Assembly: GCA_026415985.1 (NCBI GenBank)
Contig: JAOAGA010000002.1
Coordinates: forward strand, 261 to 58,887
Origin: Pseudomonadota bacterium
Lineage (GTDB): Bacteria > CALINM01
Direction of reading: 5' to 3'
Length of the DNA stretch: 58,627 bases
The notes under the pieces are model-generated. The model did not search any database and had not been told where the DNA came from. It was given only the letters and a program-made list of their open reading frames with translations. Below, in pieces: positions 9,939 through 38,617 of the stretch (positions within the stretch are counted from its first letter, which is position 1; every line of letters starts with the position of its first letter). Position numbers and translations under genes: made by a program.

Positions 9939-9945
9939 TAACTTA

Positions 9946-22312: not shown

Positions 22313-22749
22313 TGAATAAAAGCGGGTTAAAGTTAGTATATTGGTTTCACGGTCACAGTTGCCCTATGTCTACCTTAGGGTATAGGGCAGGTGTTGTGGC
22401 AAAAAAGTTGCTTAAGGTTAAAAGGAAAGATTACTATAAAGTTTCTGTTAAAGTGTTTTTTAAAAGCTGTGCTGTTGACGGTATTCAGATAAGTTTTCCT
22501 GCTACCTATGCGAATGGTAATTTAACATTACAGGATGAAAAGAGATTTGCTTTTGAGTTTCTTGACAATGAAAAAAAGAGAGGCGTAAGCATAACATTCA
22601 ACAAACCATTGTTAGACTTTATGGAAAGATATGCCCATATAAAAAAAACAGAAAAAGATGAAAAAAAGATTATTGGTTTCTTTAAAAAATTTATTAAGTA
22701 TACCCAATCGGCAAAACTGAATGATATCTTCATTATAAAAGAGATTTAA
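22312..22749 (+). CDS. FmdE-like protein
   Basis: 145 residues matching the FmdE fold (named after formylmethanofuran dehydrogenase subunit E). The signature F-H-G-H-S-C-P is at 12-18, then L-G-Y-R-A-G near 22-27 and C-A-V-D-G-I-Q from Cys53. The His/Cys pair (His13, His15, Cys17) with Cys53 forms the putative metal site. The C-terminal zinc ribbon of full-length FmdE is absent. The ATG at 22312 overlaps the previous stop (TGATG), giving a tightly coupled pair; an in-frame start at 22288 lies inside the upstream gene and is less likely. There is no formylmethanofuran dehydrogenase here, so the role is open. Confidence 0.82.
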   Translation: MNKSGLKLVYWFHGHSCPMSTLGYRAGVVAKKLLKVKRKDYYKVSVKVFFKSCAVDGIQISFPATYANGNLTLQDEKRFAFEFLDNEKKRGVSITFNKPLLDFMERYAHIKKTEKDEKKIIGFFKKFIKYTQSAKLNDIFIIKEI

Positions 22750-22763
22750 CTCTAAAATAATCT

Positions 22764-23714
22764 ATGCAGGAACTAATATCAAAATTTCTCAATATCATTT
22801 ACATAGAGATCTCCAAGATGTGGGTTTTTACCTTCATTAGTATAATTATTGCATCTTTGATAAAGACATATCAGATTGATTTAAAGATAAGGTTTCTTAT
22901 GCAGAAAAAGATTAAAACGGGTATTCTTTTTGCCACATTTGCGGGACTTGTGTCACCCCTTTGTTCCTGTGGAATTTTACCAATTGCCATCTCTCTTTCT
23001 GCTGCGGGAGTTCCATTGCCACCAATAACAGCTCTTCTTTTTACCTCGCCTGCTATGGGGCCGGAAGCTCTTGTGTTGACTTACGGAGGTCTTGGAATTA
23101 AGTATGCGTTAGTGAAATTAATCTTTGCTACTATTTTTGGAATTATAATTGGCTTTGTTTTTCTGTTTCTTCAGAGACTTAATTTCTATACCGAGGATGC
23201 CATAAGGATAAAACCGGTTTTTGATGAAAGGGGCGAGCTTTTATCGTCATACCAGATTGCCTGTGCTAATGATATTTCAATTAAAACTATGAATGTAATA
23301 CCAAGGGAAAGCAGATTTAGGTTTTTTCTTGACAGATTTTACGATATGGCTCTTTTTATTGGTGGGTTAACCTTCTTGGCGATAGTTATAGAAGCTTTAC
23401 TTCATATTTTTATAAGCCAGGATATTCTTAAAAGTTTACTCTCCTATAGTGGTATGTTTTCGGTATTAATTACCGCCTTTATAGGAGGGCTCATTCCCTT
23501 GAATCAGATTGCCTTTGTCCCCATAGCAAAGGGGCTTCAGTCTTTAGGAGCAAGTGATGCGGTAATAGTTACATTAATGTTTGCAGGCCCGACTATTAGT
23601 ATTCCATCTATAATTGTTTTATACAAGATGTTTAAATGGAGGGTTTTCATAACTTTTGTAACAGTTTCTTTTTTGCTTTCTTTGGTAGCAGGTTTAATTT
23701 TTCTCGTTATATAG
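22764..23714 (+). CDS. ArsP/YraQ-type permease (DUF318)
   Basis: 316-residue integral membrane protein with about eight helices in two halves, each carrying a family repeat: L-V-S-P-L-C-S-C-G near 62-70 and L-I-P-L-N-Q near 247-252 with the conserved F-x-G-P-x-I/L-S pattern near 277. Cys67 and Cys69 are the paired cysteines used by ArsP to extrude trivalent organoarsenicals; other YraQ permeases have unknown substrates. It follows the FmdE-like gene by 14 bases. There is no arsenic resistance regulator or methyltransferase nearby, so a different soft-metal or redox substrate is possible. Confidence 0.85.
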   Translation: MQELISKFLNIIYIEISKMWVFTFISIIIASLIKTYQIDLKIRFLMQKKIKTGILFATFAGLVSPLCSCGILPIAISLSAAGVPLPPITALLFTSPAMGPEALVLTYGGLGIKYALVKLIFATIFGIIIGFVFLFLQRLNFYTEDAIRIKPVFDERGELLSSYQIACANDISIKTMNVIPRESRFRFFLDRFYDMALFIGGLTFLAIVIEALLHIFISQDILKSLLSYSGMFSVLITAFIGGLIPLNQIAFVPIAKGLQSLGASDAVIVTLMFAGPTISIPSIIVLYKMFKWRVFITFVTVSFLLSLVAGLIFLVI

Positions 23715-23852: not shown

Positions 23853-23881
23853 TTGAAATTACTAATTTTTAAAGATATAAT
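23853..23881 (+). promoter_or_regulatory. Sigma-70-type promoter of the FG-GAP gene
   Basis: TTGAAA at 23853-23858, a 17-base spacer and a perfect TATAAT at 23876-23881. Transcription would start near 23888, followed by an AAAGGAG ribosome binding site and the ATG at 23912. Confidence 0.7.
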
Positions 23882-23911: not shown

Positions 23912-25369
23912 ATGAAGGTTAAATTGCTTGCTTTTTTCTTAGTTTTATTACTTCCGGTTTTTGCATCTGCACAGAATGTTAAGTTTGAGGATTATTCTGA
24001 GAAGGCAGGTGTGGCTTTTAAAGGAAATGGAAAAGGAGTTGCTATAGCAGATTATAATAATGATGGCCTCCTTGATATCCTGATTTCTAACAAAGGTGGC
24101 GGGATCAGATTGTACAAAAATAATGGCAACGGCACCTTTTCCGATGTCACAAAAGCTGTTGGTTTAGAAGATCTCGGTTATTGTTTAGGCTCTGTATGGG
24201 GTGACATAGACAATGACGGGTGGGTTGATTTATACGTTCCCAAAGGTGGTGTTTATGAGGTGGAAACCAATAGGCTTTTTAGGAACGAAGGTGGCAAGTT
24301 TGTTGATATTACAGATAAGGCCGGTGTTGCAGGTATAGTAGATGGTAAACCCGCTTTTACTTATGGTGCCGCTATGGCTGATTACGATAAAGATGGCTTC
24401 CTTGATATCTATCTTGCAAATTACGGTGTAGGTGCAAAAAATATTCTCTATAGAAATAATGGTAATCTCACTTTTACTGATGTTACTGATACTGCAGGAG
24501 TTGGTGATAAAAGCTGGAGTTGGAGTGCCACCTTTGCAGATGTTAATGGAGATGGTTGGCCTGATATTTATGTAGCCAACGGAAGATATCCTGCTGGTGA
24601 GCCAAATAAGCTATATATTAACAAAGGTGACGGGACTTTCGTTGAAATGGCAGAAAAGTTAGGAGTTGCCGATGACAACTGGTCATTAGGGGCATCCTTT
24701 GCAGATATTGATAACGATGGAGACCTTGACTTGTATGTGTCTAACTATATCGGAGACAATAATCTTTATATAAACGACGGTAAGGGTAACTTTACTAAGG
24801 CGACCAAAAATATTTCAGGTGCGCCTAAAGATCATTGGGGTAAAGGACCAACCTTTGGCGATATTAACAATGACGGTCTTTTAGATTTATACGAAGGTGA
24901 TTGCAAGCTTGCAAATCAGTTATATCTTAATACAGGTGGCGGTAAGTTTAAGAATATTATAAACACTATGCCCGCTTTGAAGTGCGAAACCGTCAGGACG
25001 AAAGGAACGGTCTTTGCTGATTTTAATAACGATGGTCAGCTCGATTTATATGTAGTTAACTGGGGTGCGGCAAATAAACTTTTTATAAACAAATCTAAGA
25101 ATCCAAACTGGTTAGAAATCAAACTCGTAGGTAGCAAGAGTAATAAAGATGCAATAGGCTCAAAAGTCTATGTATACGATGAAAAGGGAAAACTTGTTGG
25201 TTTCAGAGAAGTTGTTACATCTTCCGGCTTCTGTACACAGCCACCAAAGGTACAGCATTTTGGTTTTGCAAAGGCTGGAAAATATGATGTTAAGGTATTG
25301 TTCCCATCAGGTAAATCTGTAGAAAAGAAAGCAGTTGCATTAGGTCAGATACTAACAATCAACGAATAA
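23912..25369 (+). CDS. Exported seven-repeat FG-GAP propeller with ASPIC/UnbV domain (CRTAC-like)
   Basis: 485 residues. A Sec signal peptide (cleavage after A-S-A near residue 20) precedes seven FG-GAP/VCBS repeats, each with a calcium-loop motif of the type D-x-(N/D)-x-D-G-x-x-D-(I/L): N-N-D-G-L-L-D, N-D-G-W-V-D, K-D-G-F-L-D, G-D-G-W-P-D, N-D-G-D-L-D, N-D-G-L-L-D and N-D-G-Q-L-D. Seven repeats imply a closed seven-bladed propeller stabilised by Ca2+. The last 90 residues match the ASPIC/UnbV domain (N-W-L-E-I-K-L-V-G, D-A-I-G-S-K-V, H-F-G). Strong promoter, strong ribosome binding site and a hairpin terminator suggest high, single-gene expression. Likely extracellular or surface; ligand unknown. 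Confidence 0.88.
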   Translation: MKVKLLAFFLVLLLPVFASAQNVKFEDYSEKAGVAFKGNGKGVAIADYNNDGLLDILISNKGGGIRLYKNNGNGTFSDVTKAVGLEDLGYCLGSVWGDIDNDGWVDLYVPKGGVYEVETNRLFRNEGGKFVDITDKAGVAGIVDGKPAFTYGAAMADYDKDGFLDIYLANYGVGAKNILYRNNGNLTFTDVTDTAGVGDKSWSWSATFADVNGDGWPDIYVANGRYPAGEPNKLYINKGDGTFVEMAEKLGVADDNWSLGASFADIDNDGDLDLYVSNYIGDNNLYINDGKGNFTKATKNISGAPKDHWGKGPTFGDINNDGLLDLYEGDCKLANQLYLNTGGGKFKNIINTMPALKCETVRTKGTVFADFNNDGQLDLYVVNWGAANKLFINKSKNPNWLEIKLVGSKSNKDAIGSKVYVYDEKGKLVGFREVVTSSGFCTQPPKVQHFGFAKAGKYDVKVLFPSGKSVEKKAVALGQILTINE

Positions 25370-25385
25370 ACTAATGGACTAAGAA

Positions 25386-25409
25386 GGGGGCTTTAGCCCC
25401 CTTTTTTTT
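25386..25409 (+). terminator. Rho-independent terminator after the FG-GAP gene
   Basis: GGGGGC at 25386-25391, a TTTA loop and GCCCCC at 25396-25401, followed by eight T at 25402-25409. This is the only textbook intrinsic terminator I noticed in the window and it separates the FG-GAP gene from the following operon. Confidence 0.93.
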
Positions 25410-25437
25410 CGGCTCATTTCTTGTTAATCACTAATTT

Positions 25438-26415
25438 ATGAAGTTTTTATTCTTTTTTTTGTTTCTTTTCCTTTCACAAAAGGTCTATTCAGTTGAAATT
25501 ACAGTAAAAACATCTTTTAACTCTCAAAACGTGGAAGGAGTTGATGTTTTAGTTTATAAGGCAGAAGAACATATATATAGAGATAAATATCTTTTTAGTT
25601 CTCAGACAGATAAAGAAGGAAATGCAAGATTTAGACTCTCCGAAGGCAAATATTTTTTAGCGGCAGAAAAAAAGCTGAAAGACGGGATTTTGTTTGGGTT
25701 TTACGGACTCAACCCTATTTATATAAGGGAACCACAGACGATTAATTTGATTCTCGTGAAATATGAAAAAGATTTTATCAGGGAGTTAAGGGAAAAAAGG
25801 ATAGAAGGTTTTGTCTTTTATGAAGGCAATCCTGTTGAAAATGCAGGAATTTACATCTATCTTGATCTTTCCACGGAACTTAAGGGCCCGCCCTATTTAT
25901 TTGCAGTTACAGATGAAAGAGGTTTTTTTTCGTTAGATATACCTGAAGGAAGTTATTATATTATTTTTAGGAAAAGGCAGAATTCTGGGTTTGGTCCGCC
26001 ATCTTCTGGGGATTTAATAGGCTTTTTCCCTCAATTTCCTCTTGTTATAAATAAAAAGGGTGTAAAAATTTCGACAAACCTTTTTAAGATTCCTGAAAAG
26101 AGAGACCTCTCGAAAAACAAGAATCTCTTTCTTATAAAAGGAAAACTTGTCCTAAAAGATGGTAACCCTGCAGAAAAATATTATGTTGGACTATACGATA
26201 ATAGGGAACTTTTAGGAAAACCAGTTTATGTATCGACTCAAACGGATAGTAATGGAAATTTTTCAGTATATGTTAAAGAAAAAGGAAAATATTATGTTGG
26301 TATAAGAAACAATCTTGGTGATACTCCCTCTGAAGACGAGGAAGTCTTTTATTTTAACGAAATAGATATCACTGATGCCAATAAGGAGATGTATTTTGAG
26401 ATTATTATTGATTAA
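25438..26415 (+). CDS. Exported protein of three transthyretin-like domains (paralogue A)
   Basis: 325 residues with a Sec signal peptide (cleavage near residue 19) and three beta-sandwich domains of the carboxypeptidase-regulatory/transthyretin-like type at about 20-107, 120-215 and 228-325. Domain 2 contains L-K-G-P-P-Y, D-E-R-G-F-F-S, E-G-S-Y-Y-I and S-G-D-L-I-G-F-F; domain 3 contains G-K-P-V-Y-V-S and G-K-Y-Y-V-G-I-R. The same domain-specific motifs recur in the genes at 30496, 31536 and 33858. First gene of an eleven-gene operon; I see no strong promoter in the 28 bases after the terminator hairpin. No enzymatic motif; probably a structural or binding module in the envelope. Confidence 0.75.
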   Translation: MKFLFFFLFLFLSQKVYSVEITVKTSFNSQNVEGVDVLVYKAEEHIYRDKYLFSSQTDKEGNARFRLSEGKYFLAAEKKLKDGILFGFYGLNPIYIREPQTINLILVKYEKDFIRELREKRIEGFVFYEGNPVENAGIYIYLDLSTELKGPPYLFAVTDERGFFSLDIPEGSYYIIFRKRQNSGFGPPSSGDLIGFFPQFPLVINKKGVKISTNLFKIPEKRDLSKNKNLFLIKGKLVLKDGNPAEKYYVGLYDNRELLGKPVYVSTQTDSNGNFSVYVKEKGKYYVGIRNNLGDTPSEDEEVFYFNEIDITDANKEMYFEIIID

Positions 26416-28162
26416 GATTGGTCTTTTGTCAGTATTTTGCCTTATTTTAAATACTAAAAATCTACAGGCCGATGAGATACTCAAGAATACAATAATAAAA
26501 AACAACAAAACTATAAGTGGCAGAGTCATAATAGAAGGCAAGGTGACCGTTGAAAAGGGGGCTGTTTTATATATTCAGCCGGGCACACAGATATTATTTA
26601 AAAACCTTGATACTGATGGAGATGGTATTTCTGAAACTTCCCTTTGGATATACGGTAATATAATAGCAAAGGGCGAGAAGGGCAGAAAAATCCTTTTTAC
26701 TTCCTATGAAAAGGAGAAAAAATGGGGAGACTGGAAGGAAATACAGATTAATCATGTGAAGGGTTTTGTATTTGATTATGTTGAGATTCAGTATAGTGAG
26801 TATGGGCTTCATATTCATTTTTCTGAAGGAGAGATTACAAACTCTATATTCAGATATAACAATGATTGCACAAGATTGGGAAACTCAAAAATTTCTTTCA
26901 AAGACAATCTCTTTGAGAAAAATACCGGTAAGGCACTGAATTTCACTAATTGTAATATCCTATTTGAAAGAAATGTTGTAAGAGAAAACAGAGAGGGGAT
27001 TTTTGTATTTGAAAAGAGTGGTTTTGTAACGATAAGAGAAAACAATATTTATAATAATTTCAAAAATATAAAAACGGGAGATTTTTTTAAAGACAAACTT
27101 GTTTTAGAAAGAAATTTTATATATCCCGCAAATAATATCGAAGGTGAAGTAAGATTTGTCGCTGTTAATGAGCCATTTTACGGAATTCTTCCCGACGATA
27201 AAGATGCCTATATAAATTTTATTATCGAGACACAAGGATATGTTGATGGTGGCGGGGTAATAGATGGAGAGAGGTTATACTTTCCCTCCTTTGATGGCAA
27301 TATTTATGAGTATGATTTAAAAAATGGGTATGTCAGGAAATTTTTCATAGATGATTTTTCCGATGCTGTTCCTGTTCTTTATGGCAAAAAACTTTTTTCC
27401 CAAAACTGGCGGGGAGATATAGTTACCTTTGATTTACTTACAGGTAATAAAAAAATCATAGCGTCCTTTGACAAAACATTAAAAGATGATCACAGAAACC
27501 CATCTCCGGTGGTGTTTGATAATAAAGGAGTCTTTTTAAGCCCCGGTGGGAGCCTTTTAGTAATAAATCTTACTGACAATAAAGAATTATTCAGAACAAA
27601 ACTTAACGGAGAGTTCAGGGCAAAACCTTTATTAAATGGTGATCTTTTGTATATTCCTTCGGTAACAGGCGATATATATACGCTATCATTTATTGATTAT
27701 AGTTTAAATAAAGTAAGTTTTGATGGAAGTTTTTATTCCTCTCCTGTTTTTTATGAAGATTCTATAGTTATTCTGAGCAAAGAAGGAAAAGTTTTTTTTC
27801 TCGATAAAAATCTGATTGTAAAAAGAGTTGTCGATTTAAAAAGCTCTTTCAGATACCAATCTCCGATAGTCTTTAATGAAAGTTTATATTTATTTTCTCT
27901 TGATGGTAAAATATTTAAACTTAAGCAGAACGGAGAGCCTGTTCTTTTGAAAGAGACGGAAGAAATATTTACATCAACACCTATTTTATATAAAGGCTTT
28001 ATTGTTATACCGGGATTTTATGGTAATCTTTACTTCTATAGAGATGACAAAACGATAAGAATATCAAATCTGGGAGAGATGCAATTTTCTCCTTTAGTAT
28101 ATGATGATTTTATAATAATTGGCTCAAGGGCAAACAGGGTCTATGGAATTAAAATCTGGTAA
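26396..28162 (+). CDS. Exported beta-helix plus PQQ-like propeller protein
   Basis: About 588 residues. TTG at 26396 is chosen because AAGGAG (26383-26388) lies seven bases upstream and it gives a clean signal peptide (cleavage after L-Q-A near residue 25); an in-frame ATG at 26375 lacks a ribosome binding site. Residues about 30-245 form a right-handed beta-helix (stacked N-x-I-x-x-N, E-N-x-x-x-I patterns). Residues about 250-588 are short repeats such as S-S-P-V-F-Y and S-T-P-I-L-Y-K-G typical of PQQ-type eight-bladed propellers, without visible quinone-binding catalytic residues. The N-terminal part resembles the beta-helix protein at 34871. It overlaps its neighbours by about 20 bases on each side. 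Confidence 0.72.
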   Translation: MRLLLIKIGLLSVFCLILNTKNLQADEILKNTIIKNNKTISGRVIIEGKVTVEKGAVLYIQPGTQILFKNLDTDGDGISETSLWIYGNIIAKGEKGRKILFTSYEKEKKWGDWKEIQINHVKGFVFDYVEIQYSEYGLHIHFSEGEITNSIFRYNNDCTRLGNSKISFKDNLFEKNTGKALNFTNCNILFERNVVRENREGIFVFEKSGFVTIRENNIYNNFKNIKTGDFFKDKLVLERNFIYPANNIEGEVRFVAVNEPFYGILPDDKDAYINFIIETQGYVDGGGVIDGERLYFPSFDGNIYEYDLKNGYVRKFFIDDFSDAVPVLYGKKLFSQNWRGDIVTFDLLTGNKKIIASFDKTLKDDHRNPSPVVFDNKGVFLSPGGSLLVINLTDNKELFRTKLNGEFRAKPLLNGDLLYIPSVTGDIYTLSFIDYSLNKVSFDGSFYSSPVFYEDSIVILSKEGKVFFLDKNLIVKRVVDLKSSFRYQSPIVFNESLYLFSLDGKIFKLKQNGEPVLLKETEEIFTSTPILYKGFIVIPGFYGNLYFYRDDKTIRISNLGEMQFSPLVYDDFIIIGSRANRVYGIKIW

Positions 28163-30512
28163 AAAGGCCTTTTATCTGATTTTTTTTGTTTCTTTTTCTG
28201 CCTTTACCTTTGAGCTGTTACTAACAAGAATATTTTCAGTTCTTATGTGGTATCATTTTGCTTCTCTCTCCATAGGTGTGGCAATGCTTGGACTGGGTGG
28301 AGGCGGTATTTTTTCTTATGTGATAAAAGATAAGTTAAAAGAACGAACTATCTATAATGTCCTTATCATTTACTTTTTATCCTTTATCCTGATACATAGC
28401 TTTTTTTTCTATTTTCAACATAGTCCGGAAAAGATAACCCCCTTTCTTGCCTTTTTTCATCAGCCCTATTTTCAGCCCTTTCAGAGAGGTGTGTTTTTTA
28501 GTTTTAATTTTTCAACACTTATTATATTAACAATTGCCTATATTGTTATTACAATCCCCTTTTTTTTAGCAGGTTTTGTAATTTCCTCACTTTTTAAGAT
28601 CCGCTCGAGAGAGATTAAAAGACTATACTTTTATGATCTTTTGGGTGCATCTTCAGGGGCACTTTTTGTTGCAGTTGTTCTTAACTATGTAAGTCCAATG
28701 GCTCTCTTTTCACTTATTGCCGTAATTGGTTTTGCTTTGTTGGCAAAAGAGATTAAGGTCTTATCTATTCCGTTTTTTATAATAGGCATTGTTTTTCTTT
28801 ATTTTAGCTTATTTCAGAAAAGTGATGAAATACCCATAGCAAGAGGTAAGGTAGCAAATGAGATAATCTGGGTTAAGTGGAATAATTTTTCAAGGGTGAT
28901 CCTCTATAATTTAAAAGAAGACGAGTGGTCAAGCCCCTTTGGGCAAAGTAAATATTACCATGGTTATGTTCCGAAACAGTGGGGACTTTTGGTTGATGAT
29001 ACTGGTTACACTGTAGCTTCAGAGTTTCCTGATAATAGAGATAAGTTGGAATTTTTCAGATGGAACATAATATCTTTACCATATCTTATTAATAATAACA
29101 GTGCTTTGATAATAGGTCCCGGAGGAGGAAAGGATATACTTTGTGCCATAGCTATGGGAGTTAAAAATGAAAATATCACTGCCGTTGAACTAAACCCCCT
29201 TATTGTGTCTGCGGTAAATGACGTTCTAAGCAAAGAGACAGGTAGGCTCTATGATAAGGTAAATACACATGTTTCTGAGGGGCGGAGTTTTTTAGAAAAA
29301 AGGGGTGGACAAACTAAGTTCGATGTTATACAGGCAACTTCAGTTTACGGAAGAATTCCACCTGCAGCGGGTATTTTTACCTTTGCTGAAGACAATCTCT
29401 ATACTAAAGAGGCCTTTAGAACCTATTTTTCTTCGTTAAGAGAAGGTGGGCTATTATCTTTATCGAGATTTATCTATGAACAAACTGTTCCTAAAATGAT
29501 TGCCCTTTCTATAACGGGGCTTAAAGATTGTGGGATAGAAGATTTTTCTAAGTCAATCTTTTTAGCTAAGGAAAGAGGTCTTGCAATGGTTCTTACTAAG
29601 AAAGGAATATTTACAAAAGATGAGATAGACATATTGATTAAATACTGTGATGAAAAAGGTTTTGATGTGTTATATTCACCATATTATGATTATGATAATC
29701 TTTACAGCAATTTAATTAAAAGCAGATATGAAGATATAAAAATACCCACCGATGATAGCCCCTTTTATTACTATAACTTATCTAAAAGGGATTTTTTGAA
29801 ATCCTTTTTTAGCCATAACGATAAATTTGAAGAGAGAGGTATGGAGATCTTAAAATTTTTTATTATCATAAGTCTTCTCTTTATATTTTTAATTCTTTTT
29901 TTCCCACTAATTCTTAGGAGAGATAAAAACTATGTCATAAATCGCAATAACTATCTTGTGGGATTATACTTTTTTTTAATTGGTGTTGGTTATATATTGA
30001 TAGAGATAATATTCATTAAGTCTTTCTCACTTTTTTTAGAGACTCCTATGTATTCCATGATCTTTGTTACCTCTGCTATGTTATTTTTTTCAGCACTTGG
30101 TTCTCTTTTTTCTATAAAAGTAAATGAAAGAAAATCTATGATAAAACTTTTTGTGGCATTGATATTGCTCTTATTTTTATTTGGATTTATGTTAGATTTC
30201 ATCAATAAGATTCTTTATCTCAATCTGTATGTGAAAATCGTTATAACATTAATATTCGTAGGTATTCCATCCTTTTTTATGGGGATGCCATTTCCTTATT
30301 TATTAAACTCTCTTGGCAAAAGAGATGAAGGACTAATCCCCTGGGCAATAGCGGTTAACAGCGGAGCCTCTGTTTTAGGAAGTTTTCTTTGTCTTATCAG
30401 TGTTGTAAACTTAGGTTTTAAAGGTTCCTTTTTTATAGGGGCGCTGTTATACATCTTTGTTTTTATAGTTTTTTTGTTAATAAAAGGTAGCGAAAATGAA
30501 AACTTTGTTTAG
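28143..30512 (+). CDS. Polytopic membrane protein with spermidine-synthase-like domain
   Basis: About 789 residues: some seven N-terminal membrane helices, a Rossmann/SAM-type domain (about 235-560) and about seven C-terminal helices. The nucleotide-binding motif I-I-G-P-G-G-G-K-D and the acidic strand end A-V-E-L-N-P are intact. The position of the catalytic Asp of aminopropyltransferases (D-x-x-D-P) reads Q-A-T-S, so polyamine synthesis is unlikely. ATG at 28143 is preferred to a TTG at 28119 because the TTG has no ribosome binding site. Such membrane-fused spermidine-synthase homologues are widespread and uncharacterised. In this operon it may modify or transport a component of the exported scaffold; that is inference. 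Confidence 0.75.
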   Translation: MELKSGKKAFYLIFFVSFSAFTFELLLTRIFSVLMWYHFASLSIGVAMLGLGGGGIFSYVIKDKLKERTIYNVLIIYFLSFILIHSFFFYFQHSPEKITPFLAFFHQPYFQPFQRGVFFSFNFSTLIILTIAYIVITIPFFLAGFVISSLFKIRSREIKRLYFYDLLGASSGALFVAVVLNYVSPMALFSLIAVIGFALLAKEIKVLSIPFFIIGIVFLYFSLFQKSDEIPIARGKVANEIIWVKWNNFSRVILYNLKEDEWSSPFGQSKYYHGYVPKQWGLLVDDTGYTVASEFPDNRDKLEFFRWNIISLPYLINNNSALIIGPGGGKDILCAIAMGVKNENITAVELNPLIVSAVNDVLSKETGRLYDKVNTHVSEGRSFLEKRGGQTKFDVIQATSVYGRIPPAAGIFTFAEDNLYTKEAFRTYFSSLREGGLLSLSRFIYEQTVPKMIALSITGLKDCGIEDFSKSIFLAKERGLAMVLTKKGIFTKDEIDILIKYCDEKGFDVLYSPYYDYDNLYSNLIKSRYEDIKIPTDDSPFYYYNLSKRDFLKSFFSHNDKFEERGMEILKFFIIISLLFIFLILFFPLILRRDKNYVINRNNYLVGLYFFLIGVGYILIEIIFIKSFSLFLETPMYSMIFVTSAMLFFSALGSLFSIKVNERKSMIKLFVALILLLFLFGFMLDFINKILYLNLYVKIVITLIFVGIPSFFMGMPFPYLLNSLGKRDEGLIPWAIAVNSGASVLGSFLCLISVVNLGFKGSFFIGALLYIFVFIVFLLIKGSENENFV

Positions 30513-31542
30513 ATTAATGTTTTTATCATTACTGTTTCTTAGTGCCTGTGGTAAGGATGAGTTTTCGGTCAGAGGCAGGGTCTTATATAATGATAGGCCC
30601 CTGGAAGATGCTGAAGTATCGGTCTATCTCAAGTTAGAAAAGGACAAGGAAAGACCACCGGTAAAGGTTGTAGCTACTGATAAAAATGGTTTTTTTGAGG
30701 TGAGGCTTAAGAGAGGAAAATATTTTCTGACGGGGAGGAAAAGGTTAGAAGATCAGGGCGAGATAGATATGCTTGTCGGGAGTTACTCTGATACTCCCAT
30801 TGATGTAAAATCAGATCTGGTTTTAAAAGACTGGACCCTTCTTTCCAAAAAAAACAAGGAAGATTTCAAAAAAGGCACAGGAATTAAAGGTATTGTGAAA
30901 AATTTTAAAGATTTTAGAAAGGTAAGAGTCTATGCATATAAAGATACAAATAGCGGGCTTAAAGGTCCCGATTATATTTCCTTTAGTAAAATAGATAAAG
31001 ATGGACAGTTTCAGATGGATTTAAAAGAAGGTGATTTTTATATATCTGTCAGGGAGAGAAAAGGTAGTTTTGCAGGTCCACTGAAGGAAGGTGACAGGGC
31101 TTATGATTATCCAAATAATCCAATAAGACTAACCAAAGATAAATATTTAGATTTAGGTATCATGAATCTGAAAGAAGTTGATAGAAAAAAATTAGAGGAA
31201 CTTAGAAAGACAGGATATTTAAGGGAAGGGGCAATAACAATAAAAGGGGTTGTAGTCGATGAAAATAAAAAACCAGTCAAAAATGTTTATGTGATGATTT
31301 ACAAAGATAGTGAGATGATTGGCAGACCTTTTACAATATCGCTACCTTCCAAAGAAGACGGGACATTTACCATCACTTTGCCTGAGGAAGGTAAATATTA
31401 TGTAGGAGCAAGAACAAAGATCGGCGGGCCTGCGGAACCGGGTGAAAAAATTGGTTACATAAAAGGTTCATCCGATAAGTCAATAAGTGTCAAAAAGGGT
31501 GAGATAAAAAATATAATTATAGAGGTAAAGGAGATATGGTAA
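30496..31542 (+). CDS. Lipoprotein of three transthyretin-like domains (paralogue B)
   Basis: 348 residues with a canonical lipobox (L-F-L-S-A-C, lipidated Cys18), so it is membrane-anchored, unlike the other three paralogues. Three beta-sandwich domains lie at about 24-115, 128-222 and 245-348. Domain 2 shows L-K-G-P-D-Y, E-G-D-F-Y-I and K-E-G-D-R-A; domain 3 shows I-G-R-P-F and G-K-Y-Y-V-G-A-R with G-G-P-A-E-P-G-E. It overlaps the preceding membrane protein by 17 bases and the next paralogue by seven. It may anchor the assembly to the inner or outer membrane. Confidence 0.77.
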   Translation: MKTLFRLMFLSLLFLSACGKDEFSVRGRVLYNDRPLEDAEVSVYLKLEKDKERPPVKVVATDKNGFFEVRLKRGKYFLTGRKRLEDQGEIDMLVGSYSDTPIDVKSDLVLKDWTLLSKKNKEDFKKGTGIKGIVKNFKDFRKVRVYAYKDTNSGLKGPDYISFSKIDKDGQFQMDLKEGDFYISVRERKGSFAGPLKEGDRAYDYPNNPIRLTKDKYLDLGIMNLKEVDRKKLEELRKTGYLREGAITIKGVVVDENKKPVKNVYVMIYKDSEMIGRPFTISLPSKEDGTFTITLPEEGKYYVGARTKIGGPAEPGEKIGYIKGSSDKSISVKKGEIKNIIIEVKEIW

Positions 31543-32573
31543 AAGCTCTGATTTTTCTTTTAAATTTTGTTTTCTTATCCACAATAATTCAGGCAGAAGA
31601 GTTTGGTACAGTTAAAGGCAGAACCGCCTATAAAGGTGAGGTAATAGAGAATGTTTCAATTCTTGTTTATAGAGATAGTGAAAATATCGACTTGAAAAAG
31701 CCGGATAGTGTCTCAGCTAAAACTGCCATTGACGGAACTTATGAGTTTAATTTAAAACCCGGAAAATACTATCTTATTGCCTTAAAAAAACAAGGAAACA
31801 ACAGTAACTTCATCCCGGAAACGGGCGATTATTATTGTTTTTATAGTGGAGCCCCCGTTGAGGTTGTTTCCGGAGGTATAAGTTATGTTGGTTTCAATCT
31901 TATAAAGGTTGGTAAGGAAGGACCAATAAAAAGGGTAAAGGGAGATGGCGGAATATATGGAGAGGTTTTTTTTGAAGGTAAAAGATTAGAAAAATCCTAT
32001 ATCTATGTATATAAGGATTTAAAAACAGGGCTTAGGGGGCCTGCGTATTTTGTCTATCCCTCAAAGGACGGCAGTTTTTCGATAAATCTGCCGGATGGTA
32101 AATACTATATTATCGCAAGAAAAAGAGCAAAAGGCGGGATGTATGGACCTGTGGAAGAAGGGGATTATTTTAATTTTTATTATGGAAATCCTGTAGAGAT
32201 AAAAAAGGGGCAGATGAAGAGTGTAAATATTGAGTGTGTTAAAAGGTTAAGTCAGCTTGAGGAGGGAGTGGGGTTTTCTGAGATTAGTGGCTATGTTAAA
32301 GATAAGAATGGTAACCCTGTAGCAGGTCTTTTTGTTTTATTTTATCAGAGTAAAAACATGCAGGGGAAACCTCTTTATATCTCAGCAAGAACTGACAGTA
32401 AAGGCAGATACTCTATGAAAGTTCCCAAAGGAACCTATTATTTATTGGCGAGAGAAAATATTGGCGGACCTCCCTCTTCAGGTGAGTGGTATGGTCAGTA
32501 TAAAGAAGCCATAACTGTAAAAGACAGTGAAAAGCTTGATTTAATCAACGTAATCATAGAGAGGGTAAAATAG
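31536..32573 (+). CDS. Exported protein of three transthyretin-like domains (paralogue C)
   Basis: 345 residues with a signal peptide (cleavage after I-I-Q-A near residue 20) and domains at about 22-120, 128-230 and 245-345. Domain 1 carries K-P-G-K-Y-Y-L-I-A-L-K-K, domain 2 L-R-G-P-A-Y, D-G-K-Y-Y-I-I-A-R-K-R and E-E-G-D-Y-F, domain 3 Q-G-K-P-L-Y-I-S-A-R-T and G-G-P-P-S-S-G-E. Adjacent paralogues B and C are probably a tandem duplication. No cysteine-rich, haem or enzymatic motif is visible. Confidence 0.75.
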   Translation: MVKALIFLLNFVFLSTIIQAEEFGTVKGRTAYKGEVIENVSILVYRDSENIDLKKPDSVSAKTAIDGTYEFNLKPGKYYLIALKKQGNNSNFIPETGDYYCFYSGAPVEVVSGGISYVGFNLIKVGKEGPIKRVKGDGGIYGEVFFEGKRLEKSYIYVYKDLKTGLRGPAYFVYPSKDGSFSINLPDGKYYIIARKRAKGGMYGPVEEGDYFNFYYGNPVEIKKGQMKSVNIECVKRLSQLEEGVGFSEISGYVKDKNGNPVAGLFVLFYQSKNMQGKPLYISARTDSKGRYSMKVPKGTYYLLARENIGGPPSSGEWYGQYKEAITVKDSEKLDLINVIIERVK

Positions 32574-32574
32574 A

Positions 32575-33861
32575 ATGAAAAAGATAGTTTTAATAATGGC
32601 TATTTTTCTATTATCTTTGGAAAACTCCTTTTCACAGCCTGTTTTGGAAGGAAAGGTAAAGATAGAGGGCAGGAAGGAGTTTGCTGAAGGGGCGTTAATA
32701 AAGTCCGGAACAGAGATAATTATTGAAAAGGATAGTGAGTTAGTATTTAAGGGAAAAGTTGAGTCACAAAATATAAAAAAGTCAGAAATAAAGATATTGG
32801 GGAAGGAAAACAGCAAAATATCTTTCGAGCAGGCGGGTGTAAACATTAATTATCTTTCAGTGGAAAATCTTGGCATTCTTGAATTTATAGAAAGTAATGT
32901 AAATTTAAAAAATGTAAAAATAGAAAGGGCTAAGGTTGGTTTGAAAGTTACAAAAAACACCACAGGCTTTATTGAGAATTTAAATATAAGGGATTCGGAG
33001 ATAGGGTTTGTAACAGAGCTAAAGGCAAAGGTTGTTGTTTTAAACAGTACCTTTAACAATAACCAAACAGCCTTTATAGCAGATCAGGCGGGAGTTGCCG
33101 AGATAAAGAACTCCAACTTTTTCAAAAATAATCTGGCCATAGGTGTAAATTTAGATGGGGGAATAAGGATTTTTAACTCAAATATCTATGAAAATGAGGC
33201 GGGAATTACCTTTGTAAAACATATCGGCAGTATTATAAACGAGAATACCTTTAAAAATAATAAAATGGCCATTTATGCTGAGTATATGACAAACATAAAT
33301 ATTGAAAAGAATCAGTTTTTAAAGAATGATACCGCTGTTAAGTTTTATCAGCTTGTTAACGGTAAAATAAGAGGAAATAATTTCAGCAAAAACAGGGAAG
33401 CACTGTGGATAGAGAAAAAATCAAATCCGGATATCCGGTATAATACCTTTACTGAAAACAAGGTGGGGATTTTCTGTGATTTCTCTTCCTATCCGACTAT
33501 AACTTTAAATAATTTTCTTAATAATGATCTTCATATTAAATTGGGTATATATCAATCAGCTGACTTTGAAAACACTACAAGCTCATTTCTGACACAGATG
33601 CAGGAGATGTTGACTCAACAAAGCAAGAGATTATCCCCAAAGGATCAGAAAAGAAAAAGGTATGTGGGAGAGATTTTTGCAAAAAAGAACTACTGGGATG
33701 AGAAAACAAGAAAAGAGATTGATACTAAAGAAAATGTCTCAACCATCTATGATGGATATGATATGGGTGAGGTTTCTTATGAAGGTTTTGGCGATACAAA
33801 ATATAAGGTTGACACAGTTGCCCTTAAACCCTATCTCACTGAGTTAGTCAAAGATAAATGA
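32575..33861 (+). CDS. Exported right-handed beta-helix protein
   Basis: 428 residues with a signal peptide (cleavage near residue 20). From about 75 to 330 the sequence is a ladder of short strands with Asn/Ile-rich turns (for example I-R-D-S-E-I-G-F, N-S-N-F-F-K-N-N, N-I-Y-E-N-E-A-G-I), the pattern of NosD/pectate-lyase-type parallel beta-helices. The tail has the K-K-N-Y-W-D-E-K-T ending that follows many such helices. Neither catalytic carbohydrate-lyase residues nor a copper site is obvious. It sits one base after paralogue C and overlaps paralogue D by four. Confidence 0.75.
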   Translation: MKKIVLIMAIFLLSLENSFSQPVLEGKVKIEGRKEFAEGALIKSGTEIIIEKDSELVFKGKVESQNIKKSEIKILGKENSKISFEQAGVNINYLSVENLGILEFIESNVNLKNVKIERAKVGLKVTKNTTGFIENLNIRDSEIGFVTELKAKVVVLNSTFNNNQTAFIADQAGVAEIKNSNFFKNNLAIGVNLDGGIRIFNSNIYENEAGITFVKHIGSIINENTFKNNKMAIYAEYMTNINIEKNQFLKNDTAVKFYQLVNGKIRGNNFSKNREALWIEKKSNPDIRYNTFTENKVGIFCDFSSYPTITLNNFLNNDLHIKLGIYQSADFENTTSSFLTQMQEMLTQQSKRLSPKDQKRKRYVGEIFAKKNYWDEKTRKEIDTKENVSTIYDGYDMGEVSYEGFGDTKYKVDTVALKPYLTELVKDK

Positions 33862-34874
33862 AAAAACTGTTATTTTTTCTTTTCTTCTTTTTAATTTCAG
33901 AATCTTACGGAAAAGAAGGTAAAAATCTGTCTGGCAGGGTTTTGTTAGATAACTCTCCGGTTGGTAAGGGAGAGGTTATAGCACGGGAAATTGATAAAAA
34001 TGAAATATTTAAAACAGAGACCGATGAGAATGGTTATTATAATATTACACTCAAAGAAGGTGTTTACTCTGTTGAAGCCCAAAAAAGGATAGGTAACATT
34101 TTATATATCGGTTTTTCCGGCAAGAACCCTATCTTGTTAAAGGAAGATACCTATGCGGGAATAAAACTCCTTCCCCCATCTAAAATGACAAGAAAAAAAC
34201 TCAGCGATAGCAAAACAGAAATTGTATTAAAGATTTTATACAACGGAAAGCCTGTTTCTTCAGCGAGAGCCTATCTTTACTTAAAGGAAAAGGATATGAA
34301 AGGGATGCCCTTCTTTTATTCTGAACCTACAGATAAAAGCGGTATTATAAAAATCAGAAATATAATTGAAGGCAGTTATTATATCGTAGTTAGAAAGAAA
34401 AAAGACCATAAACCGTTAGGACCTATTTCAGAAGGTGATTTAATTGGGTTTTTTAGCCAAAATCCTTTAAATATAAAGGATGGCTACAGATATACCATTG
34501 AGATAAATATGTTTCAAAAGATACAGGATGAGATTACAAGCCCATTAGATATCCAAAATGTTAAAAAGATTACCGGGATAGCTCTCAGTGAAAGCGGTGA
34601 ACCTGTTTCAGGAGTCTATGCCTTTTTATATACAAAAAAAGAGATGGGCCATGAAAGACCTATATCTATATCCCGCAAAACTGGAGATGATGGAAAATTT
34701 GAATTATTAGCACCCTTTACAGGCAAGTTTTATTTAGGCGTAAGACAGTTTTACGGTGGAACACCGGTTCAGGGAGAGCTATACGGGTTGTATGATAAAA
34801 CTCATGATCATCATATTAATGTCTTTGATAATATAACAGGGATTATTATAAGGGTTAAAAAGATATTGAGATGA
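33858..34874 (+). CDS. Exported protein of three transthyretin-like domains (paralogue D)
   Basis: 338 residues with a signal peptide (cleavage near residue 19) and three domains at about 20-112, 120-220 and 232-338. Domain 2 has M-K-G-M-P-F-F, E-G-S-Y-Y-I-V-V-R-K-K and S-E-G-D-L-I-G-F-F; domain 3 has H-E-R-P-I-S-I-S-R-K-T and G-G-T-P-V-Q-G-E-L-Y-G. Domain 2 is closest by eye to paralogue A, which also shares G-D-L-I-G-F-F. It starts in the previous stop (ATGA) and ends in the next start (ATGA). Confidence 0.75.
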   Translation: MKKLLFFLFFFLISESYGKEGKNLSGRVLLDNSPVGKGEVIAREIDKNEIFKTETDENGYYNITLKEGVYSVEAQKRIGNILYIGFSGKNPILLKEDTYAGIKLLPPSKMTRKKLSDSKTEIVLKILYNGKPVSSARAYLYLKEKDMKGMPFFYSEPTDKSGIIKIRNIIEGSYYIVVRKKKDHKPLGPISEGDLIGFFSQNPLNIKDGYRYTIEINMFQKIQDEITSPLDIQNVKKITGIALSESGEPVSGVYAFLYTKKEMGHERPISISRKTGDDGKFELLAPFTGKFYLGVRQFYGGTPVQGELYGLYDKTHDHHINVFDNITGIIIRVKKILR

Positions 34875-35704
34875 AGAAGATTTTATTTTTCCTTTTGTTT
34901 ATACCGTCTATTCTTTATTCAGGTGATATTAAGATATATGAGATTAATGGCGTAGAAATCTGGTCCGGTGAGAGGGTTATAGATGGGATTGTTGTAGTGA
35001 AAGAAGGCGCAAAACTTATAATAAAAGGGGGCACGAAGGTTTACTTTAAACCTTTTGATACAGATGGAGATGAGATAGGAGATGGCGAGCTTTATGTTGA
35101 GGGAGAAATATATGTATATGGCGAAAAAGATCAGCCCGTAATATTCACCGCTCTTGCTGACAGGGTAGAACCTAAGATGTGGAAATATGTTATGGTTAAT
35201 CATTCAAGGTATGCTCACATAGAGTATGCTATATTTGAAGGCGCTTTTTCAGGCCTTCAGGTACATTTTTCAAAGGCAAAAGTGAGAAATAGTATATTTC
35301 GAAATAATATTGATGGCTTTAGGTTTTCGACCGCTAATATTGATGTTTGCAATTGCGAGATGCGGGAAAATAAGTATGGCATTCGGTATGAAGAGAGAGA
35401 CTCAACAGGTATAATTCGCTATTGTAACATAACCGGTAACGAGGTTGGCATATTTCCTGTTACTAAAGCAGAAGGTAAAGTGATTTTTAGTTATAACAAT
35501 GTAGTTCAAAACGAGTATAATATAAGGATGGGCGAAGATCAGAAAAAAGATTTAGACTTTTCTAACAATTATTATGGTTTTACCAATGAGAGAGGTATAA
35601 GAAAAACCTTTTATGACAGAGGACGTGATAAAAATTTGTCCACCGTTAAAATAAGGTCTTTTTTAAAGAAAAAAGTTACTTTAGGAGAAGATAAATGTCA
35701 GTAA
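34871..35704 (+). CDS. Exported short beta-helix protein
   Basis: 277 residues with a signal peptide (cleavage near residue 17). It matches the N-terminal half of the protein at 26396: both have F-D-T-D-G-D followed by an L-x-V/I-x-G-x-I strand, a G-E-K turn, F-T, a W, N-H, then G-L-x-x-H-F-S and N-S-I-F-R-x-N. This implies a shared ancestor without the propeller. The C-terminal N-N-Y-Y-G-F-T is the usual end cap. It overlaps its neighbours by four and ten bases. Confidence 0.74.
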   Translation: MKKILFFLLFIPSILYSGDIKIYEINGVEIWSGERVIDGIVVVKEGAKLIIKGGTKVYFKPFDTDGDEIGDGELYVEGEIYVYGEKDQPVIFTALADRVEPKMWKYVMVNHSRYAHIEYAIFEGAFSGLQVHFSKAKVRNSIFRNNIDGFRFSTANIDVCNCEMRENKYGIRYEERDSTGIIRYCNITGNEVGIFPVTKAEGKVIFSYNNVVQNEYNIRMGEDQKKDLDFSNNYYGFTNERGIRKTFYDRGRDKNLSTVKIRSFLKKKVTLGEDKCQ

Positions 35705-36234
35705 AAAAAATTTTTTTTACAGTTTTATTTGTGGTTCTTTTAATCAGAATTTCAGATGCCTGCGTTGGCAAGACAATTTATGTCGGCCATCTTTCCGGAA
35801 AGGGCGATGAGATTGTAGGAAATATATTGGCTCGGCTTATTACTGAAAGGACCGGTACCTCGGTAAAGTTAAAAAAATACAATGATACCAGCTCACTATT
35901 AAAGGCAGGCACAGGTGGAGAAGTTGATATTTTTGTGGTAGATGATAGGTTTATAGCTGAAACAACGGGACTTAAAAACCGAGACGAAGCAAAAAATATT
36001 TACAACGTTAACCATAATCTGATCTGGCTTAAGGCAATAAATGAAAAAGAAGACTTTTTAGCACCCGTTATAAGAAAAGATACGTTGAAAAAATTTCCCG
36101 CACTGCCAAGATTGCTGGAGAAATTAACAGGTCTTATAAATAATACACAGATAGAGGAGTTAAAGACTGAGGTAGAGAAGAAAGGTATGAAAGATACCAT
36201 AAAGGATTTTTTAAAGAAAAAGAGTTTAATTTAA
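35695..36234 (+). CDS. Shortened OpuAC-like substrate-binding protein
   Basis: 179 residues with a signal peptide ending near S-D-A-C; Cys24 could be lipidated but the lipobox is poor. The mature part starts I-Y-V-G-H-L-S-G-K-G-D-E-I-V-G and reads as lobe 1 of glycine-betaine-type (OpuAC) binding proteins, with G-E-V-D-I-F near 77. The C-terminal K-F-P-A-L-P-R-L-L-E-K-L resembles the end of that family. Family members are about 280-300 residues, so the middle lobe is largely missing. No ABC permease or ATPase is nearby, so it is not a normal transporter component. Confidence 0.65.
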   Translation: MSVKKIFFTVLFVVLLIRISDACVGKTIYVGHLSGKGDEIVGNILARLITERTGTSVKLKKYNDTSSLLKAGTGGEVDIFVVDDRFIAETTGLKNRDEAKNIYNVNHNLIWLKAINEKEDFLAPVIRKDTLKKFPALPRLLEKLTGLINNTQIEELKTEVEKKGMKDTIKDFLKKKSLI

Positions 36235-36246
36235 AAGAGTAAAAAA

Positions 36247-37125
36247 ATGAACAGAAGAAACTTTTTAAAATATCTTGCCTTTTTAGGAGCCAATTTTGCC
36301 TTTACAAAGGATATTCTTGCCCAAAGTAAAAAAGAACTTGCTATTTCTGAGGGTAAGGATTATGAAAAAATAACCAAAAATGCCATTGATGCACTCGGTG
36401 GTATCTCGAAGTTTGTAAAAAAAGGAGATGTTGTTGTTATCAAACCCAACATAGGCTGGGACAGAAAACCTGAAGAAGGTGCAAACACCCATCCTCTTGT
36501 TGTTAAAGCTGTTACTGAAGAATGTTTAAAGGCAGGTGCCAGAAAGGTAAAGATTTTTGACAGAACCTGCAATGATCCGAGAAGATGTTACGTAAACAGC
36601 GGTATGGCTAATCTTTTACAAAACATAAAAGGTGTTGAACTTAAACACCTGGACAATGAAAAGTATAAGAATTATAAAATTAACGGTGTCTTTATTAAAG
36701 AATGGGAGCTTTATGAAGAGGCTATCAACTGTGATGTATATATAAATATCCCGGTGGCAAAACATCACGGATTGACAGGCTTGACTTTGGCGTTAAAAAA
36801 CATTATGGGAATTATGGGTGGTAACAGAGGATACATTCACAGAGAAATTGAAGAATCTCTTTGTGATTTTAATAGTTTTGTTAAAATTCATCTTCACATA
36901 GTAGATGCTACAAGAATATTATTAAGAAACGGTCCTCAGGGTGGGGGAGTTAAAGATGTTAAAATTTTAAACACGGTATTGGCATCTACGGATCCTGTTC
37001 TTGCAGATGCCTATGCGACAACACTATTCGGTATAAAGCCAGAGGAAATATCTATCACCAAAAGAGCCTATGAAAGAGGTTTGGGTGAGATAAATATCAA
37101 CAGGGCAAAAATAATAAAAGTTTAA
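36247..37125 (+). CDS. Tat-exported DUF362 protein
   Basis: 292 residues. The N-terminus has a twin-arginine motif (N-R-R-N-F-L-K) followed by a hydrophobic stretch, predicting folded export with a cofactor. The DUF362 core is clear: V-V-I-K-P-N-I-G-W near 64-72, N-T-H-P near 80-83, N-I-P-V-A-K-H-H near 168-175 and A-L-K-N-I-M-G near 183-189, then D-P-V-L-A-D near 251. DUF362 proteins are frequently next to polyferredoxins and their activity is not established. The next gene begins one base after the stop. Confidence 0.85.
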   Translation: MNRRNFLKYLAFLGANFAFTKDILAQSKKELAISEGKDYEKITKNAIDALGGISKFVKKGDVVVIKPNIGWDRKPEEGANTHPLVVKAVTEECLKAGARKVKIFDRTCNDPRRCYVNSGMANLLQNIKGVELKHLDNEKYKNYKINGVFIKEWELYEEAINCDVYINIPVAKHHGLTGLTLALKNIMGIMGGNRGYIHREIEESLCDFNSFVKIHLHIVDATRILLRNGPQGGGVKDVKILNTVLASTDPVLADAYATTLFGIKPEEISITKRAYERGLGEININRAKIIKV

Positions 37126-37126
37126 G

Positions 37127-38617
37127 ATGAAAATAACAATTCCCCGATTATCACAAATAGTCTTCTTTATAATTTTTCTGGTTCTTTTTATTAATACCGA
37201 TTACAGAGGCAAAGACGAGATTAATATTGCTATTAATAGCTTCTTTCGGGCAGATCCGCTTGTTCTTGTAACTTATATTCTTTCAACCTTTTCTTTCATT
37301 ACCCTGCTAATTCCTGCTCTTCTCATGGTGATAGCAACATTTTTCCTGGGAAGATTTTTCTGCGGATGGATATGTCCCCTCGGTGCTTTCCTGGATTTTG
37401 TGTCACTTAAGATAAAAAAAAACAGTCAGTTAAAAATATTTAAAGGAAAATTTAAATATTACTTTCTTTTTACACTACTTTTTCTTTCATTGTTTAATAT
37501 CAATTATGGCGGTGTTTTTGATCCCATTGCCATCTTTATACGGTTTCTTACCTTTTTTGTATATCCCTTATTCGGATATGTTGTTAAATCAGGATGGGGT
37601 TGGCTATACGGTATATTCGGAAACAAGATTGAGTTTGCAGAGGGTTTTTACAAAATTATCAAATATAACATTCTGCCTTTTAGGGATACCTTTTACCCCC
37701 TTGCCTTTTTATCAAGCTTTCTTTTTATACTTATAGTTTTCTTGGAAAGATATGAAAAGAGATACTGGTGTAGGCATCTCTGTCCTTTAGGCACACTTCT
37801 TGGGATTTTCAGCAAATTTTCAATATTTAAGAGATTGCCAAAAAAATTATGTTCCGACTGTGGTGAATGTAAAAACATCTGTCCAACAGCTTTCGACAGA
37901 GAGATTTTAAACGAGGAAAATTGTATTATCTGTCTTGATTGTCAGGTTAAATGTAAGTTTGGTAGGGTGAAGTTTAGTCCTTTTAAGTTTAACATTAAAT
38001 CTGCAAATCCTGATTTAAATAAGAGGTTTTTTATAAACTCTTTTATCTTTGGGTTTGTATTATCAAATATCTTTAAAAACGGAAATTACAATAACAAATT
38101 GCTTCGCCCCCCCGGCGTAGCCGATGAAAAAGAGTTTCTGAAAAAATGTGTCCGGTGTGGTGAGTGCATGAAAATTTGCCTTAAAAATGCCCTATATCCT
38201 TCCTATTTAGAGGGGGGTGTATATAGCTTATACACACCCATTTTAATACCAAGAAAAGGTTATTGTGAGTATAATTGTAGTCTCTGCGGTCAGGTTTGTC
38301 CTACAAAGGCTATACCTAAGCTACCTATTGAAGAAAAGAAAAAGCAGGTTATAGGAATTGCCCATTTTGACAAAAACCATTGTCTTCCCTATGCAAAGAA
38401 AACAAACTGTCTTGTTTGTGAAGAACATTGCCCGATTCCCGGTAAGGCAATAAAGATTAAAAAGAGAAGAGAAATAGGTTATAATGACAAAGCTTTTGAA
38501 CTATTGGAACCCTATGTTGATGAGAAGCTATGCAACGGTTGTGGTATCTGTGAGTATGTATGCCCCTTGACAGGAAAGTCAGGAATAGAAGTTTTCCGTG
38601 AGAAACACAGCTTTTAG
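37127..38617 (+). CDS. NapH-NapG-type membrane polyferredoxin fusion
   Basis: 496 residues. The N-terminal half is a NapH/MauN-like membrane protein (about five helices) with F-C-G-W-I-C-P-L-G near 82-90 and W-C-R-H-L-C-P-L-G near 215-223. Two 4Fe-4S motifs follow (C-S-D-C-G-E-C and C-I-I-C-L-D-C). The second half begins with the R-P-P-G-x motif of NapG/MauM and adds C-V-R-C-G-E-C, C-S-L-C-G-Q-V-C, C-L-V-C-E-E-H-C and C-N-G-C-G-I-C-E-Y-V-C clusters. It probably carries electrons from the quinone pool to periplasmic acceptors. No CxxCH haem motif is present. It ends the accessory operon, 15 bases before def. Confidence 0.87.
   Translation: MKITIPRLSQIVFFIIFLVLFINTDYRGKDEINIAINSFFRADPLVLVTYILSTFSFITLLIPALLMVIATFFLGRFFCGWICPLGAFLDFVSLKIKKNSQLKIFKGKFKYYFLFTLLFLSLFNINYGGVFDPIAIFIRFLTFFVYPLFGYVVKSGWGWLYGIFGNKIEFAEGFYKIIKYNILPFRDTFYPLAFLSSFLFILIVFLERYEKRYWCRHLCPLGTLLGIFSKFSIFKRLPKKLCSDCGECKNICPTAFDREILNEENCIICLDCQVKCKFGRVKFSPFKFNIKSANPDLNKRFFINSFIFGFVLSNIFKNGNYNNKLLRPPGVADEKEFLKKCVRCGECMKICLKNALYPSYLEGGVYSLYTPILIPRKGYCEYNCSLCGQVCPTKAIPKLPIEEKKKQVIGIAHFDKNHCLPYAKKTNCLVCEEHCPIPGKAIKIKKRREIGYNDKAFELLEPYVDEKLCNGCGICEYVCPLTGKSGIEVFREKHSF

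Follow-up and report, generated by a model that had tools for sequence, protein, structure and literature searches.

The eleven co-directional genes on the + strand at 25438-38617 of the window (the whole stretch of 58,627 nucleotides analysed here) are, judged by gene order across genomes, the 3' part of a conserved envelope operon of 15-17 genes. The reading favoured here, tentatively and at a little under an even chance, is that of a redox operon working with the GeoRSP system, in which a NapH-NapG fusion polyferredoxin (NapHG) feeds an exported DUF362 protein of LarA fold within an assembly of transthyretin-like (TTR) and beta-helix proteins. The features of the unit are listed in Table 1.

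Conservation and boundaries of the gene unit

All eleven genes described in a preceding sequence-only reading are present in the list of open reading frames of the window, and the family labels given to them are backed by Pfam/NCBIfam matches. Counted from the first ATG/TTG of each frame, the junctions within the block range from -44 to +12 bases. The gaps of at most 12 bases reported in that reading were confirmed, but its range of 4-20 bases for the overlaps was too narrow, as two of them reach 41 and 44 bases; these become smaller with later starts, and if the membrane protein gene begins at 28143 the overlap is 20. Inspection of the translations by eye agreed with the earlier count of nine products carrying a signal peptide, a lipobox or a Tat motif. 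On the right, 6 bases separate the block from def. Searches for plasmid sequences and against Rfam gave no match.

The block had been regarded as a whole unit; however, in Desulfuromonadales and in family f109 the conserved unit extends from the AAA gene at 21431 to NapHG, and it also includes the FmdE, DUF318 permease and FG-GAP/ASPIC genes upstream of 25438. An operon start at 25438 as an evolutionary unit was rejected, since these four upstream genes are conserved together with the block. Predicted from the translations, most products of the unit are exported beta-rich proteins.

A strong, terminator-like hairpin lies between the end of the FG-GAP gene (25369) and the start of TTR1, with a minimum free energy of -20.1 kcal/mol over a 41-nt stretch (z -3.1). 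It was missing from the output of the terminator scan and was spotted by reading the sequence; at the same place, 13 of 18 other loci have a hairpin of at most -14 kcal/mol followed by a T-run. The site TTGAAA-17-TATAAT is the best + strand promoter match in the region, where the total number of such sites is not above chance. Position 25438 may either bound a transcript or be read through; with the hairpin placed after the FG-GAP gene and the best promoter-like site upstream of that gene, read-through from the upstream genes into the eleven genes is plausible.

The same ordered unit is present in distantly related lineages, as gene-by-gene comparison shows. Indeed, (i) the order of 15 genes in the window is identical in L033 and in L260, a locus of genome G260, (ii) 14-17 genes stand in order in L197, L211, L214, L217, L220-L223 and L226-L228, and (iii) the order is found again in another genus of the same family (G002, where collinearity extends over the whole block and its neighbours), in family f109, whose kinship to the genome of the window is at domain level only, and in many Desulfuromonadales. 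Between lineages, nearly all operon proteins share 26-61% identity. The TTR, beta-helix and DUF362/NapH genes, whose conserved co-occurrence had been proposed as a check, form one co-directional unit in the same order in these distant lineages. Homologues scattered singly, named by the sequence-only reading as the finding that would speak against it, are not what is seen for the unit as a whole; the description half holds for DUF362-NapHG, since Geobacterales and Syntrophorhabdia also have this pair on its own. Chance clustering and a chimeric metagenome-assembled genome were both rejected because the order is common to three lineages. Of the 147 genomes around G062, 65 encode TTR-family proteins, as do 15 of the 386 genomes of a broad sample. 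The earlier remark that no described system has such a composition stands for the literature that could be searched, where no description of the operon was found.

Lineages differ in detail. Units of Desulfuromonadales carry one more NosD-like gene and, found in this taxon only, a small gene that separates TTR4 from the beta-helix gene and looks DUF3467-like by eye (L154 7225-7548 and others). In one Desulfuromonadales subclade no DUF362-NapHG was found in the fetched stretch, and the NapH-like protein of GeoRSP itself is encoded nearby. On contig C42 of G001 (L079, ~5192-5298), a Zn-ribbon gene (a homologue of w19932) is directly followed by the C-terminal part of TTR4; the genes between them are missing, by deletion or by assembly collapse.

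Table 1. Features of the conserved unit in the window, with their basis and conservation
Feature	Position	Strand	Basis	Conservation and remarks
AAA ATPase, first gene of conserved unit	21431..22312	+	Pfam AAA	First gene also in Desulfuromonadales and f109, with 53-55% identity
FmdE-family protein	22288..22749	+	Pfam FmdE	Same place in L202, L217, L220, L221, L260; scores low outside family
DUF318/ArsP-type permease	22764..23714	+	Pfam ArsP_1; SaoE and SO_0444 matches below cut-off	39-41% identity to distant lineages
Promoter-like site TTGAAA-17-TATAAT, upstream of FG-GAP gene	23853..23881	+	11/12 match	
Secreted FG-GAP/ASPIC (CRTAC1-like) beta-propeller protein	23912..25369	+	Pfam FG-GAP_3, UnbV_ASPIC	58-61% identity to distant lineages
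Intrinsic-terminator-like hairpin with U-run, after FG-GAP gene	25385..25411	+	Sequence reading, MFE	
TTR1, tri-domain transthyretin-like secreted protein	25438..26415	+	Pfam DUF4198/CarboxypepD_reg/TTR-52	
Beta-helix + propeller exported protein	26375..28162	+	Pfam Beta_helix, Beta-prop_ACSF4, PQQ_2	
Multi-spanning membrane protein, spermidine-synthase-like Rossmann domain	28119..30512, likely start 28143	+	PRK00811 E 0.0012; weak polyamine aminopropyltransferase match	Motifs GPGGGKD, ELN, QAT-VYGR conserved in 28 sequences
TTR2, tri-domain lipoprotein	30496..31542	+	Lipobox LSAC; Pfam CarboxypepD_reg	
TTR3, tri-domain secreted protein	31536..32573	+		Best conserved TTR; 40-46% identity to distant lineages
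NosD-like beta-helix exported protein	32575..33861	+	Pfam NosD E 1.7e-18	
TTR4, tri-domain secreted protein	33858..34874	+	Pfam DUF4198/CarboxypepD_reg	
Beta-helix exported protein	34871..35704	+	Pfam Beta_helix	37-44% identity to distant lineages
One-lobe OpuAC-type binding-protein homologue	35695..36234	+	Pfam OpuAC	
Tat-exported DUF362 protein, LarA fold	36247..37125	+	Pfam DUF362; AF2 model	
NapH-NapG fusion polyferredoxin, six [4Fe-4S] motifs	37127..38617	+	NapG, NapH models, below cut-off	

The DUF362 protein and its NapHG partner

LarA is a nickel-pincer racemase, and the lactate racemase superfamily corresponds to DUF2088. The DUF362 protein of the window matches PF04015 as its sole Pfam family, and no Lar_N (PF09861) match was obtained. 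Its AF2 model (pLDDT 91.8) aligns with members of the LarA family at Z 16-19 (top 19.3), the next unrelated row being at 5.9; the N-terminal domain superposes on 9eid over 206 residues (Z 19.3, rmsd 2.6) and has the LarA fold. Among 56 DUF362 sequences, K184, H174, H198 and R194 are invariant, R73 is found in 55 and C108 in 52. H174 and K184 are spaced (H174-x9-K184) as His174 and Lys184 are in LarA, and R73 and H198 fit LarA R75 and H200, an equivalence by fold and spacing only. Neither a hhalign comparison of DUF362 with LarA, which gave no alignment over the active site, nor a search of PDB sequences with a DUF362 profile, which gave no LarA match, recovered the likeness. DUF362 and LarA are placed in one Pfam clan, and the LarA1 residues have been named (PMC11770544). 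In brief, the DUF362 protein shares with the LarA superfamily the fold of the N-terminal domain and the Lys/His spacing, but it is shorter, Tat-exported and paired with a polyferredoxin, and it has an almost invariant Cys near the position of the catalytic LarA His108. A second, ferredoxin-containing DUF362 protein (L306 6544-7662; L307 5485-6603) is weakly matched by the Lar_N profile, and this match falls in the Lys/His region.

As regards genes of the Lar type, LarB scores above cut-off in the genome of the window and in G002, and LarC is complete in G002 and present as a contig-end piece in the genome of the window; LarB and LarC are neighbours (L304, G000:C99, 900-1655; L299, G002, 7453-10054). 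LarC was detected in 14 of the 15 operon genomes, counting that contig-end fragment, and was not seen in G001. LarA was not found in the genome of the window (a draft, 84% complete) or in G002, and Lar_N is absent or gives a weak partial match in G000-G002, G378, G238, G507 and G437. In the broad sample, LarC is encoded in 32 of the 38 genomes with strong DUF362 homologues versus 163 of the 348 others. However, five good genomes with strong DUF362 homologues are LarC-negative (G472, G056, G047, G435, G496), and a strict rule that DUF362 needs LarC was rejected. Since DUF362 keeps K184 and H198 in the LarC-negative genomes examined, these residues do not prove the presence of nickel-pincer nucleotide (NPN), and such genomes count against a strict nickel-pincer claim.

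In NapHG, the NapH half has CX3CP motifs at 79 and 215, 4Fe-4S motifs at 242 and 266 and six hydrophobic segments, and the NapG domain has four [4Fe-4S] motifs at 341, 380, 428 and 469. The protein matches PRK09476 below cut-off (E 1e-28), and also Fer4_5. NapGH has been assigned one of two roles, quinol dehydrogenase or maturation factor (PMC6195509). As in the NapGH modules of nap and c-nos clusters, a NapH-type membrane polyferredoxin and a NapG-type four-cluster domain adjoin a Tat-exported protein; here, in contrast, NapH and NapG are fused and score below their cut-offs, and no NapA, NapB or NosZ was recognised among the Pfam/NCBIfam matches of the unit.

In the tree, the DUF362 protein of the window groups with free-standing pairs of Syntrophia/Syntrophorhabdia (support 99/90) and is separate from the operon types of Desulfuromonas and f109; both it and NapHG share 57-62% identity with the free-standing forms versus 37-50% with the operon types. 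The phylogeny suggests that the 3' pair may have been exchanged in place; an ancient duplication with loss is the alternative.

Exported beta-rich proteins and the GeoRSP cluster

Four proteins of the block match CarboxypepD_reg/DUF4198/TTR families, and three match Beta_helix/NosD, one of them also with a PQQ/ACSF4-type propeller. TTR3 is modelled as three successive all-beta blocks (AlphaFold model m938c73ac26e8), and its best Foldseek matches are CnaB-type pilins and surface adhesins. These matches, the well-conserved FG-GAP protein and the separability of DUF362-NapHG in distribution and phylogeny would fit a structural assembly at the cell surface, similar to a pilus or an S-layer, through which the cell adheres or touches a solid electron acceptor; the TTR and beta-helix proteins would then do the work, with DUF362-NapHG as a passenger redox module. 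This explanation is considered unlikely: the TM-scores are ~0.2, a likeness at the level of domains only, the operon has no gene recognisable as coding for a sortase, for secretion or for pilus assembly, and the NapHG pair stands at the same place in distant lineages.

The GeoRSP cluster of the same genome (L044, G000:C72, 743-11443) is collinear in G002 and encodes an EB_dh protein, a two-domain TTR lipoprotein, a HEAT protein, a NapH-like protein, a one-lobe OpuAC protein, beta-helix proteins, a PhnD-like protein, YedE, PqqD and the GeoRSP radical SAM proteins. The radical SAM protein and seleno_YedE score above their cut-offs and PqqD below its own; a weak selenate-type binding-protein match and a cysteine-desulfurase-family protein were also found in the cluster. 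GeoRSP (NCBIfam TIGR04302-04304, uncharacterised) resembles the window operon in having its own TTR, one-lobe OpuAC, beta-helix and NapH-like paralogues, and differs from it in that the radical SAM/SPASM, SPASM and PqqD genes, present on C72, are absent from the window unit. The two are adjacent in eight Desulfuromonadales loci (L212, L215, L216, L218, L219, L224, L225, L230) and in two f109 genomes (L260-L263), and their genes are mixed in f222 and f251. Genomes with an operon-type TTR usually also carry GeoRSP, as comparison of gene content showed: when operon-type TTR was defined by a best E of at most 1e-60, which sets aside the TTR of GeoRSP itself, GeoRSP was present in 43 of 50 such genomes versus 12 of 97 others (Fisher 7e-19, with no correction for relatedness). 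The occurrence of TTR in all 55 GeoRSP-positive genomes was discarded as evidence, being partly circular. The absence of cytochromes noted earlier holds for the operon, but in the associated cluster the EB_dh-type protein may bind haem at its conserved CX3CH and CHHG motifs (L199 10308, L212 4922 and others).

With this partner, the operon could also be a reductive maturation machine, which would serve an envelope enzyme whose gene lies elsewhere by loading or reducing its metal or sulfur cofactor, in the manner proposed for NapGH and known from nos clusters with NosD. The co-occurrence of NosD-like beta-helix proteins with NapH/G, the maturation role discussed for NapGH, and the YedE, PhnD-like and cysteine-desulfurase-family proteins brought by GeoRSP point that way. 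It is nevertheless judged quite unlikely, as no client enzyme was identified and the likeness to the NosD/NosDFY-NosL machinery ends with the beta-helix proteins, whose NosD-like score of 38.4 is far below the TIGR04247 cut-off of 300 bits; no NosFY-type ABC transporter (NosF, NosY), NosL or NosZ was recognised.

The supposed OpuAC fragment proved to be a conserved one-lobe protein rather than a decayed gene. Its Pfam match ends at profile position 256 of 257, PDB alignments span only the two ends of OpuAC-type proteins, and the short form is found in 21 loci with an invariant C23 at the predicted mature N-terminus; a pseudogene was rejected since this form is conserved. Uptake or detoxification of metal, sulfur or selenium species through this lobe, the DUF318 permease and FmdE with the partner YedE and PhnD-like proteins, to which the ArsP_1, FmdE and OpuAC matches and the seleno_YedE and selenate-type matches of the partner cluster would be relevant, is very improbable, as the second lobe normally needed for ligand closure is missing, the unit has no ABC ATPase, and many large exported beta proteins would be left unexplained.

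Proposed mechanism and its meaning

The gene content supports the electron-supply module that the sequence-only reading placed at the 3' end; its further idea, that the scaffold receives electrons or a modification through this module, stays conjectural. For the favoured redox operon, we infer the electron path, cofactor, function and scaffold role as follows. NapHG would draw electrons from menaquinol (or cytoplasmic ferredoxin) via its membrane NapH half and hand them through four [4Fe-4S] clusters to the outer face. The DUF362 protein would be folded around its cofactor in the cytoplasm and then exported by Tat, a route that fits cytoplasmic cofactor insertion; once exported, it could accept these electrons and carry out a reduction or a hydride-type reaction. 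A periplasmic or outer-surface assembly made of the four TTR, three beta-helix, FG-GAP and one-lobe OpuAC proteins would hold the enzyme or its substrate; such a scaffold or binding role is proposed for them because they have no recognisable catalytic part. In the most speculative step, the cofactor could be NPN or a close relative. A LarA-fold periplasmic redox enzyme with a nickel-pincer-type cofactor, exported by Tat, reduced by a quinol-linked polyferredoxin and held in a TTR/beta-helix complex with GeoRSP, is possible, if doubtful.

If true, this would be a redox use for a cofactor known from racemases, and it raises the question of which protein uses the nickel-pincer cofactor in LarB/LarC genomes where LarA was not found. 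DUF362 and GeoRSP gain a shared context, and an order-conserved operon of distant anaerobes, for which no described system was found, offers a whole envelope machine that is testable, including in culturable Desulfuromonadales relatives.
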